From assembly GCF_000018405.1 (NCBI RefSeq), contig NC_009943.1, positions 3,351,001 to 3,415,000 of the forward strand: a stretch of DNA of 64,000 bases, read 5' to 3'. The DNA comes from Desulfosudis oleivorans Hxd3. Lineage in GTDB: Bacteria; Desulfobacterota; Desulfobacteria; Desulfobacterales; Desulfosudaceae. The translations under genes and the position numbers were made by a program. The notes beneath the pieces are model-generated. The model saw nothing but the letters and a program-made list of their open reading frames with translations, had not been told where the DNA came from and made no database searches. Below are positions 56,366 to 63,213 of this stretch, piece after piece (the stretch's first letter is position 1; each line of letters starts with the position of its first letter).

Positions 56366-56404
56366 AAAAAAGGGGCGAAGCCCTAACGGCTTCGCCCCTT
56401 TTTG
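56366..56404. terminator. Bidirectional rho-independent terminator
   Basis: GGGGCGAAGCC (56372-56382) pairs with GGCTTCGCCCC (56388-56398) around CTAAC, flanked by an A run and a T run, so it can end both the SDR/hydrolase transcript and the minus-strand rnf transcript, whose last gene ends at 56431. Confidence 0.9.
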
Positions 56405-56430: not shown

Positions 56431-58530
56431 TTACAGCTTGCAGCCGTCCTCCCGGTTGTAGCAGGTCGTGCAGCAGAAGAGGCACCGGTCCGCCTCCTTC
56501 AGGGCATTCTCCTCGCTGATGACCAGGTCGGCCTCGTCAAAGGTCTTGATCCGGCTGCTCACCTCCAGCTCCGGCATCTCCACCCGCTTGCTCTTTGTGA
56601 CCCCGTCCACTGTCTCAAACAGGCACCCGGGAATATGGGTCTTGAACAGGTCGTTGGGCGGCGGTGTCACCGGCTGGCCGGAGAGGTAAAGATCAATGGA
56701 GCGGGCCGCGCGGCGGCCCCCGCCGATGGCTTCCACCACCAGGGAGGCGCCGGTTGCCGAATCGCCGGCGGTAAAAATATACGGAATATTGGTCTGAAGG
56801 GTCTGGGGGTCAATCTGGTCGATGGTGTCCCACTTGGTGGTGGCCAGGGCCTCACCCCGCCGGCCCTTTTCCGTCTCTTTAAAGGAGATGTCGGGTCCCT
56901 GGCCGATGGCCAGCACAATCATGTCGGTCTCCAGCACCTGGACCGCGCCCTCCTTGGGTACGGGTTTACGGCGGCCGCTGGCGTCCGGCTCGCCCAGTTC
57001 CATCTCCTGGACCTCCAGGCCCACTACGTTACCATTCTCATCCCCGAGAATGCGGTTGGGGGAGAACAGGTATTTCATGTTGACCCCTTCATGCTCGGCC
57101 GCCTCGATCTCCACCATGTTGGCCGGCATCTCGTTCCGGGTCCGGCGATAGACAATGGAGACCTCTTCAGCGCCCAGCCGCACCAGGGTCCGGACGCAGT
57201 CAATGGCCGTGTTGCCGCCGCCGATGACGGCGCACTTTCTGCCCACCGGCACCGGGTCCGTGCCGGCGCCCTGCTGCCATGCGGCAAATTTGGTGAGAAA
57301 GGATATGCCGGTGTAAACACCCTTGAGGTCGTTGCCTTCAATCTTAAGACCGTAATCCTTCCATGCGCCGATGCCCAGGAAAATGGCGTCGTACCCGGCG
57401 GCCATCAGGCTGCCCATGTCAAAATCACGGCCCAGCCGCATGTTGGGCTTGTGCTCGATGCCCATGTTGAGAATGCCGTCGGTCTCCCACTTCAGCACTT
57501 TTTTGGGCAGCCGGTATTCGGGAATACCGTAACGGATCATGCCGCCCAGCTCCGGGTTGTCGTCAAAAATGGTCACGCCGTGTCCCACCCGGCGCAGAAA
57601 ATAGGCGGCGGTCAGGCCGGCCGGGCCGCCGCCGATCACCGCTACCTTCTTGCCGGTGGACGGCGCGCAGGAAATGGGCAGCCGCTTGCCGGAGTTCATC
57701 TCATAGTCAGCCGCAAACCGCTTGAGCTGGTTGATGGAGACCGGCTCATCCACCACCCCGCGGCGGCACTTGTCCTCGCAGGGATGGGGGCAGACCCGGC
57801 CGCAGGCCAGCAGCAACGGGTTTCTCTCCCGAATGGTGTTGACCGCGCCCTCATAGTCGCCGGTTTTGATCTGGTTGATGTACTTGGGAATATCGATCTG
57901 GGCCGGACAGGTCTGGGTGCACGGCGCATGGGCTCCGTTGGTGGCATTGAACTCAAAGAGCCGCTGGGACATGGTTTTGACCCGAATGATGTTCTTCGGA
58001 CAGACCGCCTCACAGGCCCCACACCCCACGCACTTGGCCGGGTCCACCACCGGGTAGCCGTCTTCGCCCATCACGATGGCGTCAAAGGCGCAGGCTTTAA
58101 TGCAGTCACCGTATCCCAGGCATCCGGTGGGGCAGTCCCGCCGGCCGCCGTACAGGGCCGTGACCGCGTTGCAGGAAAGGATTCCCTTGTAGTTGTATTT
58201 GTTTTCCGCCCGGTTGCCGCCGGTGCACTCGTTTTCCGACACCCTGGGCTCGGCGGTTCCCGGATCCACTCCCATGATGGCGGCGATATTGGCCGCGGAA
58301 TCCGGCCCACCCACAATACAGACACTGGGCAGGGCCTCTCCCTTCACCACCGCCGCGGCAGCGGCTGAACAGCCGGCATATCCGCACCCGCCGCAGTTGG
58401 CGCCGGCGGTTGCCGATTCGACCTCTGCGATACGGGGGTCTTCATAAACATAAAACACACGGGAAGCAACACCCAGAATGACGCTGCTGGCCATGCCCAG
58501 CCCCAACATGGAAAGAATCGCATTTAACAC
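56431..58530 (-). CDS. rnfB: RnfB fused to a GltD/NfnB-like FAD-NAD(P) oxidoreductase
   Basis: A 699-residue fusion. Residues 1-190 are RnfB: membrane helix, the Fe-S site Cys46-Cys49-Cys54-Cys71 (CGGCGYAGC), then ferredoxin-like clusters CPTGCLGYGDCIKAC and CVGCGACEAVCP. From about 200 the chain is like the small subunit of glutamate synthase or NfnB: Cys-rich CTQTCPAQ and CGRVCPHPCEDKC, FAD loop GGGPAG (300-305), and NAD(P) loop GGGNTAID with YRRTRNEMPA. The C-terminus has a Cys group (CLFCCTTCYNREDGC). Normal RnfB is about 200-330 residues. The start is GTG at 58530 with AAGGAG upstream. Last gene of the rnf operon; the fused part would deliver electrons between NAD(P)H and the Rnf chain. 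Confidence 0.92.
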   Translation of the reverse strand: MLNAILSMLGLGMASSVILGVASRVFYVYEDPRIAEVESATAGANCGGCGYAGCSAAAAAVVKGEALPSVCIVGGPDSAANIAAIMGVDPGTAEPRVSENECTGGNRAENKYNYKGILSCNAVTALYGGRRDCPTGCLGYGDCIKACAFDAIVMGEDGYPVVDPAKCVGCGACEAVCPKNIIRVKTMSQRLFEFNATNGAHAPCTQTCPAQIDIPKYINQIKTGDYEGAVNTIRERNPLLLACGRVCPHPCEDKCRRGVVDEPVSINQLKRFAADYEMNSGKRLPISCAPSTGKKVAVIGGGPAGLTAAYFLRRVGHGVTIFDDNPELGGMIRYGIPEYRLPKKVLKWETDGILNMGIEHKPNMRLGRDFDMGSLMAAGYDAIFLGIGAWKDYGLKIEGNDLKGVYTGISFLTKFAAWQQGAGTDPVPVGRKCAVIGGGNTAIDCVRTLVRLGAEEVSIVYRRTRNEMPANMVEIEAAEHEGVNMKYLFSPNRILGDENGNVVGLEVQEMELGEPDASGRRKPVPKEGAVQVLETDMIVLAIGQGPDISFKETEKGRRGEALATTKWDTIDQIDPQTLQTNIPYIFTAGDSATGASLVVEAIGGGRRAARSIDLYLSGQPVTPPPNDLFKTHIPGCLFETVDGVTKSKRVEMPELEVSSRIKTFDEADLVISEENALKEADRCLFCCTTCYNREDGCKL

Positions 58531-58566: not shown

Positions 58567-59142
58567 TTAAGCCATGCCTTTGAACGCGAAAAACGCCAGC
58601 GCGATCATGCCCGCGGTCACCAGACCGATGGAGGTATCCTGCAGCGGCTTGGGCACCTTGCCCAGGTTGATCCGCTCCCGCACGCCGGCAAACAGGATCA
58701 GGGCCAGGCCGAAACCCACCGCGTAGGAGAAGGAGGCCACCAGGGCCTGCAGAAAATTATACTCCTCCTTGATGTTGATCAGGCAGGCGCCCATCACGGC
58801 GCAGTTGGTGGTGATCAGGGGCAGAAAGATGCCCAGGCCCGCGTAGAGGGCCGGAATGCTCTTTTTCAGGAACATCTCCACAAACTGGACCAGGGAGGCG
58901 ATCACCAGGATAAAGGCCAGGGTGCGCAGAAATTCAAGGTCAAGCCACTTGAGCAGGAACACGTCCACGCACCAGGTGATCATGCCGGCCATGACCAGGA
59001 CGAACACCACGGCCATGGACATGCCCACCGCGGTCTCCATTTTCTTGGAGGTGCCCAGAAACGGACAGTTACCCAGGAACTGGGCCAGCAGAATGTTGTT
59101 GATCAGAATACAACTGATGGCCAGAAGAATATATTCGGTCAT
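58567..59142 (-). CDS. rnfA: Electron transport complex subunit RnfA
   Basis: A 191-residue membrane subunit with six helices, beginning MTEYILLAISCILINNILLAQ and FLGNCPFLGTSKK. The two Cys in CILINN and NCPF hold, together with RnfE, the intramembrane [2Fe-2S] cluster in characterised Rnf/Nqr complexes. Length is normal. It is separated by 9 bases from rnfE and followed by rnfB. Confidence 0.95.
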   Translation of the reverse strand: MTEYILLAISCILINNILLAQFLGNCPFLGTSKKMETAVGMSMAVVFVLVMAGMITWCVDVFLLKWLDLEFLRTLAFILVIASLVQFVEMFLKKSIPALYAGLGIFLPLITTNCAVMGACLINIKEEYNFLQALVASFSYAVGFGLALILFAGVRERINLGKVPKPLQDTSIGLVTAGMIALAFFAFKGMA

Positions 59143-59151
59143 GATGGTCTC

Positions 59152-59754
59152 CTATTTTTCCAGCATGTTCATGATACAGAGCATCAGGCCGAGGCACACA
59201 AAAGCGCCCGGCGCCTGCACCATAAAGGCAAACGGCAGAAACGCGTCGCCGAACAGTGAATAACTGTTGCCGAGGACCGTCAATGTGCCGGCGCCAAGGG
59301 CCTCCCGGACCGCGGCAATGGCGGCCAGGGACAAGGTAAACCCGACACCCATACCGAGCCCGTCGGCAATGGATGGCAACAGGGGGTTTTTAAAAGCAAA
59401 GGCCTCGGCCCGTCCCAGCACGATGCAGTTCACAACGATCAGGGGGATAAAAATGCCCAGTTGCAGGAACAGGCTGTAGGTATAGGCCTGCATCAGCAAT
59501 TCCACCAGGGTCACAAAGGTGGCGATGATGGTGATAAAACAGGCGATGCGCACCTTGGTGGGAATGACGTTTCGCAGCATGGAAACCAGAATGTTTGACC
59601 CCACCAGCACAAAGGTGGTGGCAAGCCCCATGCCGATGCCGTTTTCCACTTTGGTGGTCACGGCAAGGACCGGGCAGAGGCCCAGCACCAGCCGAAACGG
59701 CGGAATCTCCGCCCACAACCCCTTGGTAAACTCTTGCGTAATAGACTTGGCCAT
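59152..59754 (-). CDS. rnfE: Electron transport complex subunit RnfE
   Basis: A 200-residue membrane protein homologous to RnfA with six helices. It contains LGLCPVLAVTTKVENG and NCIVLGRAEAFAF, which have the Cys that complete the intramembrane cluster. The ATG at 59754 has AGGGGAG upstream; a TTG two codons earlier is a poorer option. Operon order C-D-G-E-A-B is standard for Rnf. Confidence 0.95.
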   Translation of the reverse strand: MAKSITQEFTKGLWAEIPPFRLVLGLCPVLAVTTKVENGIGMGLATTFVLVGSNILVSMLRNVIPTKVRIACFITIIATFVTLVELLMQAYTYSLFLQLGIFIPLIVVNCIVLGRAEAFAFKNPLLPSIADGLGMGVGFTLSLAAIAAVREALGAGTLTVLGNSYSLFGDAFLPFAFMVQAPGAFVCLGLMLCIMNMLEK

Positions 59755-59769
59755 TTTCAACTCCCCTGT

Positions 59770-60360
59770 TTATAAACTTGCTATCTTGTTTTTGATCTCG
59801 TCTTCCAGCTGCTGGTAAATCTCACCGGCATTGGTGGCGGCATTGCACACGGCCCCGGAGGTAACGGTAGCACCGCTGATGGCGTCGATCTGGCCGCCGG
59901 CGCTTTTGACCTTGAACGTCTGGGTCACGGGAAGGCCCACAAACCGGTTCACCAGATCCGGCTCGCTCTTGGCCCTGGAGCCGATGCCCGGGGTCTCGCT
60001 GTGAGTGGTCACGCCGGCGCTGGCAATGGTGCCGGTGTCAATATCCACCCCCACCATCAGGCCCACATCACCGCCGAACCCGCCCTTGCCGCTGACGCTC
60101 AGGGCCACGTACCGGACCTTTCCGTCCACGGCGATGGGAAAAAGGGTCACCGCCTCCTTGCCCTCGCCAAGGGTGAACCGGTCAGCGATCATGTCATTGG
60201 AAGCGTTTGCAAACATCTCCCGCAGCACCGGCCCCTGCACAAAGTTGAGTACCTGAAGCTCGATCTTGTCCTGTGTCGCGGCCCGCACACCGGCCAGCAG
60301 TCCGCCGGAAACCGCGGTCAAAACGGTCAGCACCACCACCATTTTAATTAATTCACGCAT
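59770..60360 (-). CDS. rnfG: Electron transport complex subunit RnfG
   Basis: A 196-residue membrane-anchored flavoprotein: an N-terminal helix (about 7-27) and an FMN-binding domain that should be outside the cytoplasm. The covalent FMN motif SGAT (Thr165, in DAISGATVTSGAV) is intact, as is the ETPGIGSRA loop. It starts at ATG 60360, sharing a base with the rnfD stop. RnfG passes electrons to RnfD in the known complexes. Confidence 0.95.
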   Translation of the reverse strand: MRELIKMVVVLTVLTAVSGGLLAGVRAATQDKIELQVLNFVQGPVLREMFANASNDMIADRFTLGEGKEAVTLFPIAVDGKVRYVALSVSGKGGFGGDVGLMVGVDIDTGTIASAGVTTHSETPGIGSRAKSEPDLVNRFVGLPVTQTFKVKSAGGQIDAISGATVTSGAVCNAATNAGEIYQQLEDEIKNKIASL

Positions 60361-61322
60361 TATGCTACCTTCCCCATTGCTTTTGGTCTGATTTTATCAA
60401 CAAGTGGATTGATCAGGTTGATCACCAGAATGGCAAACACCACACCGTCCACATGCACGCCGATGTTTCTGATCAGAACGGTCAGCAGACCGCCGGCGGC
60501 GCCGTAGATCAGCATGGGTACAAAATTAACCGGTGAAGAGGAGTCCTCTGTGGCCAGAAAAAAAGCGCCGATCAGCGTGTAGCCCGTCAGCAGGTGAAAG
60601 ACCGGGCCCGCATACTCCACGGGCTTGGCCAGGCTGAACACCAGGGCCGTGACAAACACACCGGCCAGAAAAGAGACCGCAATCTCCCACCGGATATAGC
60701 CCCTTATCATCAGGTAGATGCCGCCGATGAGAATGCCCAGGCCGAAAGTGGCGCCGATGCCGCCGGCCTGTTTGCCCATCAGCAGGTCCATGGGCGTAAA
60801 CCCGGCCACGCTGGCCGAACCGAAATACTTGGCCGACCACATCGGGTAGACCATGTTGAAGCCGGTTTCGTAGTCGGCCAGCATGTAATTAAAATCCACG
60901 AAAGCGGGCCATGAAACACCCAGAATCGCCAGGCTGATGAGGGCAGGATTAAAAGGATTGGCGCCCAGGCCGCCGAAAATCTGCTTGGCGATGACAATGG
61001 CCACAAAAGTGCCGGTGATCACCATCCACCAGGGCGTGGTGGCCGGCAGCAGCATGGCCAGAAGCAATCCCACCAGGGCGGCATTGCCGTCTCCCACGGA
61101 AACCGGTGTTTTGGAAACCCTGTTAATCAGCAGCTCCCAGAGTATGGCGGTGGACACGGAGAGGCAGACCACGGCCAGGGCCGGCACACCATAGGTCAGG
61201 ATGCCGGCGATCACCGGAATCAGGGCCACCAGCAGAATATTATAGTGCCGGGCCGACAGGCTGCTGCCGTCATGCCAGAACGGCGCATGTGAAACAACCA
61301 GTTTTTTAGAACTATGCTGCAT
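60360..61322 (-). CDS. rnfD: Electron transport complex subunit RnfD
   Basis: A 320-residue membrane protein with about nine helices. LLPATTPWWM, GANPFNPALISLA and GLGILIGGIYL are typical of RnfD/NqrB. The usual covalent-FMN motif SGATP appears as AGFTPMD here, with the Thr-Pro kept (Thr near 176), so the flavin may still be attached; this needs proof. The ATG at 61322 overlaps rnfC by 11 bases. A frame to 61430 lies in rnfC. Confidence 0.92.
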   Translation of the reverse strand: MQHSSKKLVVSHAPFWHDGSSLSARHYNILLVALIPVIAGILTYGVPALAVVCLSVSTAILWELLINRVSKTPVSVGDGNAALVGLLLAMLLPATTPWWMVITGTFVAIVIAKQIFGGLGANPFNPALISLAILGVSWPAFVDFNYMLADYETGFNMVYPMWSAKYFGSASVAGFTPMDLLMGKQAGGIGATFGLGILIGGIYLMIRGYIRWEIAVSFLAGVFVTALVFSLAKPVEYAGPVFHLLTGYTLIGAFFLATEDSSSPVNFVPMLIYGAAGGLLTVLIRNIGVHVDGVVFAILVINLINPLVDKIRPKAMGKVA

Positions 61323-62595
61323 GATCCGCCTCCGCTGTAGTGAGTCTGGCAAATTCGTACTTGCCGAGTTGTATATACTGGAATATCGGAATTCGTGCCG
61401 GGCATACGCAACTGCACAGGCCGCAGTCAATGCAGGAAAGCAGGTCGTGGCTGTCCACGGCCTCGCCGTACTCCCCGGCCTGTAGATAGCGGATCAGCAC
61501 ATTCACCGGCACCCGGGCCGGACAGATTCTCACGCAGTCACCGCAGTTGATGCAGCTGTTTTCCGACACATCGAAAATCTGGTCGGCGCCCTGCACAAAA
61601 ATCATGTCTGTATCCGGTCCCACGGGATGACTTTCGGTGTAGACCGCGGTTCCGGTCAGCGGGCCGCCCAGGACCAGCCGGTCGTTTTCACTGACCGCCT
61701 GGGAACAGGCGGAAAGCACCTGGCCCACCGGCGTGCCCAGCACCACCGACACCAGTTTCTTGGTCCCGTTTTTCAACACCACGGTAACGATCTTACGATC
61801 CGGAACCCTGCCCTTCTCATAGGCTTTCCCCAGGGCCGCCACCGCCTCGGCACTGACAAAACAGATGCCCGCCGCCTCGCAGGTGGTATCGGCCGGAATG
61901 GTCATCCCCAGCAGGTCTTTTGCCATAATACGCGGGTTGGCCGCCGGGTAGGCAGCGCCGACCTTTTTTATTTCCAGCCCGCCGGCCTGCAGGCCGGGCG
62001 CCATCCTGTCGAACACCGTCAGCATCATTCGGGGCGCGCCGCCCAGCATCTTTTTCAGGGCCTCGGCACCCCGCAGAATGGCATCCATGCCGGCTTTCAA
62101 CACATACTGGCGGGTCACGCACAGCAGGTCCGAATCCACACCGCATACAACGATCGTCTTGATCTTGTCGGGTGTGTCAAACAGCGCGACAGGCAACCCG
62201 CCGGGCACGCACCGCAAAAACCGGTCGGCAGCCTCCAGCGACGGGGTTTTACCGGCCTGGGCAAAGGCGTCATCCGCCGCGGCACTCGCATCCACCTTGA
62301 CGGTTACAGCGGTATACCGCCGGCCGAAATTCCCGGTATAGGCATCCACCGAGGACACCGTACCGCCCAGGGCCGCCGTGGCATAAGCGTCGCTGCCGGC
62401 AATGGGTGATACCGCCTGGCCTTGGGCAATGGCGTCTCCTGTATGGACCTGCAACGCCGTCTGATTTTCAAGGGGCGTGTCCACCAGCAGGGTGATAGCG
62501 GCGGGTGCCGGTATTTCCTGGGCCGCCAGGGTCGAATCCAGGGGTTCATACATCAATGTAGGCTTTGCCAATCCGAAAAACGGTCTTTTTATCAT
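61312..62595 (-). CDS. rnfC: RnfC-like subunit with degenerate NADH-binding region
   Basis: A 427-residue RnfC-like protein. The N-terminal biotinyl-lipoyl-like fold and two C-terminal [4Fe-4S] motifs, CINCGDCVRICP (from 348) and CIDCGLCSCVCP (from 388), are present. The middle region is not typical: where RnfC normally has GGAGFPT for NADH/FMN and NGAECEPY, this protein reads CVPGGLPVALFDTP and CGVDSDLLCV (about 129-160). NADH oxidation at this subunit is therefore doubtful. Typical RnfC proteins are often longer. The ATG at 62595 has AAGG upstream. It lies 63 bases after the cytochrome gene. Confidence 0.88.
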   Translation of the reverse strand: MIKRPFFGLAKPTLMYEPLDSTLAAQEIPAPAAITLLVDTPLENQTALQVHTGDAIAQGQAVSPIAGSDAYATAALGGTVSSVDAYTGNFGRRYTAVTVKVDASAAADDAFAQAGKTPSLEAADRFLRCVPGGLPVALFDTPDKIKTIVVCGVDSDLLCVTRQYVLKAGMDAILRGAEALKKMLGGAPRMMLTVFDRMAPGLQAGGLEIKKVGAAYPAANPRIMAKDLLGMTIPADTTCEAAGICFVSAEAVAALGKAYEKGRVPDRKIVTVVLKNGTKKLVSVVLGTPVGQVLSACSQAVSENDRLVLGGPLTGTAVYTESHPVGPDTDMIFVQGADQIFDVSENSCINCGDCVRICPARVPVNVLIRYLQAGEYGEAVDSHDLLSCIDCGLCSCVCPARIPIFQYIQLGKYEFARLTTAEADHAA

Positions 62596-62658: not shown

Positions 62659-63213
62659 CTACTGGGCGTGGCACTCGCCGCAGGCAACGGGTCCCGCCCC
62701 ATAATCCTCGTGACATCCGATGCACTGGTCATGCAGGGCGTCCGACGTCTTCTGAAACTTCATGATCATTGCATCCCCGTAATCCGGGTCGTGGCACTCG
62801 CTGCAGGAGGCCGGAATATCCTCGCCTTCGGCCAGAGCATGGCAGTCCTTGCAGGTCCAGGCCTCCGGTTCGGTCTCCAGCACCACATGGTGCTCATCAA
62901 AAATATAGTCGTCGTAAATCACGGGGTGGCAGGCCGTGCACTCGGAAGGAACGGTCTTGACGTCAGCGGCCCGGTGACATTCGGCGCACGACATGTAATC
63001 GCCCGTTTCACCGTGATGATGACAGGCGGCGCAGTCGTCCACCTGGGCATGCATCTGATGGTCGAACATCACATCCCCCCCCAGGCTTTTGTAAACCTTC
63101 CGAACAGGTTCGTCAGGCTTTTCCGCGGGCACCGCCGCGTAACAGACCACGCCCACAATCAGTAAAATTGCGGCCAGACCGTAAGCAAGTTTTGTCTCCT
63201 TTTGTGATCCCAT
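62659..63213 (-). CDS. Seven-heme membrane-anchored cytochrome c
   Basis: A 184-residue protein with an N-terminal signal/anchor (LAYGLAAILLIVGVVCYAA) and seven CXXCH heme sites: CAACH, CAECH, CTACH, CKDCH, CSECH, CIGCH and CGECH, spread evenly. Additional His residues (HHHG, DHQMH, EHHVV) can be distal ligands. It resembles class III-type multiheme cytochromes found beside rnf genes in some sulfate reducers and Methanosarcina. It leads the operon, so it probably links Rnf electrons to periplasmic carriers. The ATG at 63213 has GAGGA upstream. Confidence 0.9.
   Translation of the reverse strand: MGSQKETKLAYGLAAILLIVGVVCYAAVPAEKPDEPVRKVYKSLGGDVMFDHQMHAQVDDCAACHHHGETGDYMSCAECHRAADVKTVPSECTACHPVIYDDYIFDEHHVVLETEPEAWTCKDCHALAEGEDIPASCSECHDPDYGDAMIMKFQKTSDALHDQCIGCHEDYGAGPVACGECHAQ

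Follow-up and report, generated by a model that had tools for sequence, protein, structure and literature searches.

Which electron carrier serves an Rnf complex whose RnfB subunit holds a pyridine nucleotide site of its own? The question is raised by a gene in the 64,000-nucleotide stretch of the Desulfosudis oleivorans Hxd3 genome analysed here (the window; NC_009943.1, positions 3,351,001 to 3,415,000), from a marine sulfate reducer whose genome is a single contig of 3,944,167 bases. In classic Rnf, electrons pass from ferredoxin through the RnfB clusters, RnfA/E, RnfG, RnfD and the RnfC clusters to FMN and NAD+ (PMC9588780, PMC11889175). An earlier note, made from the window's letters, had read the locus as an otherwise ordinary Rnf whose RnfB gained a complete GltD/NfnB-like flavoprotein, possibly one that bifurcates or confurcates electrons like NfnAB. 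We favor, with somewhat better than even credence, a different model, in which the large RnfB of the variant known as Rnf2 acts as a non-bifurcating NADPH:iron-sulfur module that feeds the Rnf core in the manner of NqrF.

Architecture and descent of the fusion

The fused gene (rnfB-gltD, type A; 56431..58530, minus strand) is a single uninterrupted frame of 699 residues with a GTG start and an AAGGAG site 6 nt 5' of it; the earlier note had frame, start, ribosome site and coordinates right, and left the strand unstated. Both NCBIfam and Pfam assign the N-terminal part to RnfB and the part after it to a GltD/PRK12771-like module. The first 75 residues (58306..58530, minus strand) comprise a membrane helix, at residues 2-25 in the predicted structure, and the single-cluster FdI domain, whose RnfB FeS motif (PF04060, residues 43-72 by Pfam) contains four cysteines (C46, C49, C54 and C71) that are invariant in 52 of 52 full-length fusions. 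Next comes the FdII region (residues 96-190; 57961..58245, minus strand), with ten invariant cysteines between residues 102 and 177; the 4Fe-4S pair extends to residue 183 by Pfam, and the alignment to RnfB of solved Rnf complexes holds to about residue 190. The remainder is a StnC/NfnB-like GltD module (residues 198-619; 56674..57939, minus strand), for which two 4Fe-4S sites, FAD and NADPH are predicted. Pfam finds Fer4_20 at residues 200-280 and Pyr_redox_2 at 294-604, and the FAD and NAD(P) Rossmann folds both lie within the one polypeptide, supporting the earlier proposal that the fused module adds an FAD/NAD(P) site and further clusters to RnfB. Structure matches from Foldseek cover the GltD part (residues 199-653); the RnfB part was located by sequence alignment.

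Solo RnfBs carry a tail with roughly 8-18 cysteines after FdII, and fused RnfBs have GltD at that place. Published proposals have ferredoxin dock here, on the outermost clusters at the C-terminal end of RnfB (PMC9588780, PMC11889175). Judged by its place in the chain, then, GltD stands in for the ferredoxin-docking domain, FdIII, rather than being added on top of it.

The RnfB part alone was searched against 395 Desulfobacterota genomes, with a fusion defined as an open frame of at least 660 aa. RnfB was found in 135 of the 395 genomes, and at least 59 loci, spread over 43 genomes, had a fused frame; these counts come from match lists ended at weak matches. Named carriers among the matches listed are Desulfosarcina alkanivorans and Salidesulfovibrio brasiliensis, the latter partly broken across frames. 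Relatives in other Desulfobacterota, which the earlier note had only suspected, are thus common, and a rare or unique fusion is ruled out by the same loci. So are chance and a sequencing error that removed a stop between two genes, the latter being the event that the earlier note named as fatal to its reading, since the same fusion is open in every one of these frames. No fusion was present among 150 RnfB loci sampled from four other phyla (those of a clostridial, a nitrospiral, a Chlorobium and a planctomycete genome), where the longest open frame was 542 aa.

The tree that the earlier note had called for brings the GltD domains of every RnfB fusion together in one clade (65 sequences, support 0.954), and therefore points to a single fusion event; separate events for the two classes of fusion, types A and B, are ruled out by the same tree. 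Rnf2 operons likewise form one clade in a tree built from RnfD, RnfG, RnfA and RnfE, and some unfused RnfBs belong to that clade as well. The change in RnfC described below is therefore as old as the fusion or older, and its association with the fusion reflects few evolutionary events, within one Rnf2 clade, rather than 29 independent ones. In one family (f50; L127, L143, L152 and L154), RnfC lacks the FMN/NADH motif, RnfB is unfused and a cytochrome with ten CxxCH motifs is encoded upstream. The family nests close to the fused clade, at weak support, and possibly represents loss of the GltD part.

GltD residues and the question of bifurcation

In the predicted structure of the fusion (pLDDT 89.6), the GltD module matches the large chains of NfnABC and StnC (9bov_A, Z 41.9, and 8oh5_C, Z 40.9) at an rmsd of 1.9 across about 470 residues, reaching residue 688; the match to NfnB, at Z 32.8, lies below these StnC/NfnABC-type chains. 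Residue 270 is a lysine (codon 57721..57723, minus strand) that aligns with Lys170 of StnC and with the NfnB glutamate, the residue that ligates the cluster adjacent to FAD. Lysine occupies this position in 30 of 30 type A and 22 of 22 type B fusions, and the genome's own NfnB carries glutamate at the equivalent position.

The module is not complete in the sense that the earlier note intended. Its Fer4_20 match begins at profile position 28, and the N-terminal RCxxC half is missing; in its stead there is a StnC-like C-terminal motif, CxxCCxxC (residues 683-690; 56461..56484, minus strand). C683, C686 and C690 of this motif, kept here, are present in 29 of 30 type A and 22 of 22 type B fusions. 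They seem to substitute for the NfnB-type RCxxC, and as putative ligands they likely complete the distal cluster.

The FAD loop, GGGPAG, sits at residues 300-305 (57616..57633, minus strand), exactly where the earlier note had placed an FAD loop. Farther along lies the motif GGGNTAID...R...R...YRR (residues 437-463; 57142..57222, minus strand), an NADPH-binding signature that is invariant in all 30 type A fusions across 49-69% identity. Because of this invariance, NADPH is a likelier nucleotide here than NADH.

StnC offers a precedent for such a module. It has the Lys ligand, oxidises NADPH and contains an FAD that is non-bifurcating despite a retained flavin Arg (PMC10482914). The large chains of the Sporomusa-type transhydrogenase (StnC) and of NfnABC share with our module the Lys ligand, the NADPH signature and the C-terminal Cys extension, but StnC has a NuoG-like continuation and StnAB as its partner, whereas here the module is attached to RnfB in a membrane complex. 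The residue pattern argues for a StnC-like GltD that would take in electrons from NADPH without bifurcating them.

The module has the FAD/NADPH fold of NfnB from NfnAB. The alternative, in which GltD behaves like NfnB and NADPH electrons are split between ferredoxin and the Rnf core, accords with Arg340, the equivalent of the NfnB bifurcation Arg near flavin N5, which is invariant in the fusions, including 30 of 30 type A. In addition, a soluble FdII and GltD derivative encoded near a 2-oxoacid:ferredoxin oxidoreductase hints at NADPH-ferredoxin exchange. However, Arg340 is not diagnostic of bifurcation, because StnC has the equivalent Arg although its FAD is non-bifurcating (PMC10482914). Missing here are the Glu ligand, replaced by Lys270 in 52 of 52 fusions, the N-terminal RCxxC and the NfnA partner: the rnfB-gltD operon contains no NfnA gene, and the same genome encodes a separate NfnAB, in which NfnA adjoins a true NfnB. 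The usual ferredoxin-docking domain is gone as well. We therefore consider Nfn-like bifurcation or confurcation, the mechanism suggested in the earlier note, improbable for this protein.

RnfC, the operon and a proposed route of electrons

The fusion is the final gene of a tight operon on the minus strand, with intergenic gaps of -14 to 63 bp, in the order cytochrome, rnfC, rnfD, rnfG, rnfE, rnfA, rnfB-gltD. The first gene encodes a c3-like multiheme cytochrome with seven CxxCH motifs (62659..63213; PF02085) and lies 63 bp upstream of rnfC (61312..62595). After rnfC come rnfD (60360..61322, with a putative start at 61322; TIGR01946, 221.7 bits, over cut-off), rnfG (59770..60360; NF045876, 248.8 bits), in which the FMN threonine motif SGAT is kept, rnfE (59152..59760; TIGR01948, 244.1 bits, over cut-off) and rnfA (58567..59142; TIGR01943, 246.5 bits, over cut-off). 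A strong hairpin terminator (56367..56403, no strand assigned; 16 pairs and a T-rich tail) stands directly 3' of rnfB. The operon contains no NqrF gene. A cytochrome gene of the multiheme type precedes rnfC in 18 of 29 operons with a fused RnfB and in 0 of 55 motif-bearing operons; a neighbouring cytochrome gene is absent in 11 of the 29. Elsewhere in the genome, at about 351-356 kb, is a separate classic rnf operon (L043:5968-16874), about 6 kb upstream of the NfnAB genes.

RnfC scores 140 bits against TIGR01945, under the cut-off of 246. It has no Complex1_51K or SLBB match in Pfam, and the motifs GxGGAxFP and NxxECxP are absent. The FMN/NADH motif GxGGAxFP was found in 0 of 29 operons with a fused RnfB, compared with 55 of 75 with an unfused one, and in 0 of 12 operons without a same-strand rnfB. 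In 8 of those 12 genomes a fused rnfB is located elsewhere; the gene has departed from the rnfCDGEA operon in these genomes (L126, L145, L159, L170, L174, L175, L177 and L190). The rest of the subunit is retained: the eight cluster cysteines are kept here and in 29 of 29 fused operons, and the predicted structure (pLDDT 92.8) matches A. vinelandii RnfC (8rbm_C) with Z 33.7 and NqrA with Z 27.0. RnfC is thus unlikely to be an NAD site, because its FMN/NADH motifs are lost from a subunit that keeps its fold and two 4Fe-4S clusters. In the membrane core, the RnfA/E cluster cysteines and the RnfG threonine are likewise kept in 29 of 29 fused operons.

These observations bear on two readings of the complex. 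The earlier note's picture of a classic Rnf with an extra NAD(P)H site overlooks the loss of the FMN/NADH motifs from RnfC and the replacement of the ferredoxin-docking domain by GltD. With the classic complexes of A. woodii and C. tetanomorphum, this Rnf shares the RnfACDEG core, FdI and FdII, and the RnfC fold and clusters; it differs in an RnfB without FdIII, an RnfC without the FMN/NADH motif and the added NADPH/FAD module. A second reading, in which Rnf2 is a ferredoxin:NAD+ oxidoreductase with rearranged sites that links the NADH and ferredoxin pools, follows the way Rnf2 is drawn in a 2025 survey (PMC11887813) and is compatible with the intact membrane core. The same motif loss in RnfC and the NADPH-type signature of the RnfB module speak against it, and we regard it as distinctly unlikely.

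Our preferred model, NADPH input through RnfB, extends beyond the residues to an NADPH activity, a route, an acceptor, a direction and ion pumping, all of which we infer. The GltD module would oxidise NADPH, or reduce NADP+, at a non-bifurcating FAD. Single electrons would leave this flavin by way of the two 4Fe-4S clusters of GltD, cross FdII from cluster to cluster and reach FdI, whose cluster is mobile. FdI would then hand them to the RnfA/E iron-sulfur centre and on to the RnfG/RnfD flavins, and they would exit probably to the operon's c3-like periplasmic cytochrome or to a soluble partner of RnfC. In the simplest version the cytochrome would receive them after RnfG, and the partner after RnfD and RnfC. 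Pyridine nucleotides would thereby in effect enter at RnfB where they once entered at RnfC, an arrangement like that of Nqr, in which NqrF is the entry point and NqrA is cofactor-less. Na+-NQR shares this layout, with nucleotide and FAD on the input side and a cofactor-poor RnfC/NqrA homologue on the other, although its NqrF is a reductase unrelated to the GltD module. Trees rooted on nqr operons place Rnf2 inside Rnf; the likeness to Nqr would therefore be convergent, and Rnf2 as the ancestor of Nqr is unsupported. A bolder extension, which we hold only tentatively and with more doubt than belief, is that Rnf2 represents a second, independent Nqr-like layout, in which NADPH drives ion pumping and a periplasmic cytochrome is reduced; type B would be a later branch that abandoned NADPH in favour of another donor.

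Should NADPH prove to be the substrate, Rnf2 would be a natural parallel to the proposed origin of Nqr, in which RnfB was lost, the RnfC nucleotide site was lost and a flavin input module was gained (PMC4014512). It would also give these bacteria an energy-conserving outlet for NADPH, a carrier that current metabolic models pass through Nfn and classic Rnf.

Published relatives, type B fusions and soluble derivatives

Complexes of this kind are already known, as "large RnfB" or "Rnf2". D. toluolica Tol2, D. multivorans and D. autotrophicum are described as having an Rnf whose RnfB is about 700 aa long and has NAD+-binding sites, whose RnfC is missing its NADH and SLBB parts, and whose cluster includes a cytochrome gene; the authors leave the mechanism to future experiment (PMC5109826). 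The 2025 survey reports Rnf2 as abundant, constitutive and part of the core genome of Desulfobacteraceae, which it describes as dominating sulfate reduction in marine sediment (PMC11887813), and the window's copy may well be counted there already. Taking these published descriptions of the D. toluolica and D. multivorans complexes (PMC5109826; PMC11887813) as the basis for comparison, our locus resembles the Rnf2/Tol2 type in four respects: its RnfB is about 700 aa long and has a nucleotide site, its RnfC is without the NADH part, a cytochrome gene belongs to the cluster, and the genome encodes a classic Rnf separately. The Rnf2/Tol2 papers speak of NAD+ sites and an open mode of action, whereas the signatures seen here point to NADPH and to a non-bifurcating module of the StnC type. 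In the literature on RnfB with NfnB or GltD, we found no paper that calls the module NfnB- or GltD-like. What is new here are the counts of RnfC motif loss, the apparent replacement of FdIII by GltD, the StnC-like Lys270/NADPH signature and the loss of that signature in type B. With these residues in hand, the loosely defined "NAD-binding large RnfB" becomes a precise question of NADPH versus NADH versus ferredoxin.

Type B fusions are nested in the GltD clade on a long branch and keep all FeS cysteines, Lys270 and Arg340, with the NADPH signature eroded. In 13 genomes type B fusions are the only ones, most of these inside rnf operons. NADPH cannot be the donor in type-B-only genomes, because the signature is eroded, and the NADPH rule does not extend to all Rnf2. 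This pattern is consistent with a reading in which ferredoxin is still the substrate of RnfB, through FdII, and Rnf2 is a ferredoxin oxidoreductase that reduces cytochrome c, like the Methanosarcina Rnf, or a partner of RnfC, with GltD regulatory, vestigial or fed by another donor. The frequency of cytochrome genes and the occurrence of unfused RnfBs in operons of the Rnf2 clade point the same way. However, in type A, which includes the gene studied here, the signature's invariance over 49-69% identity argues for its use, and we consider the ferredoxin reading unlikely, if worth keeping in view.

This genome has a type B paralogue as well (L042:10081-13365, at about 3.04 Mb), with an eroded NADPH signature and flanked by a MinD/CooC-like ATPase gene and an RseC/MucC gene; RseC adjoins type B in many other genomes too. 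A further set of proteins, of about 600 aa, consists of FdII and GltD without the helix and FdI (L048:6898-8694, and also in L045, L046, L047 and L049), and these fall within the RnfB-GltD clade. The L048 gene adjoins genes for 2-oxoacid:ferredoxin oxidoreductase, succinyl-CoA ligase and a fumarate reductase-like enzyme, and its product appears to be a soluble protein connecting NADPH with ferredoxin in a gene cluster of reductive TCA-like type.
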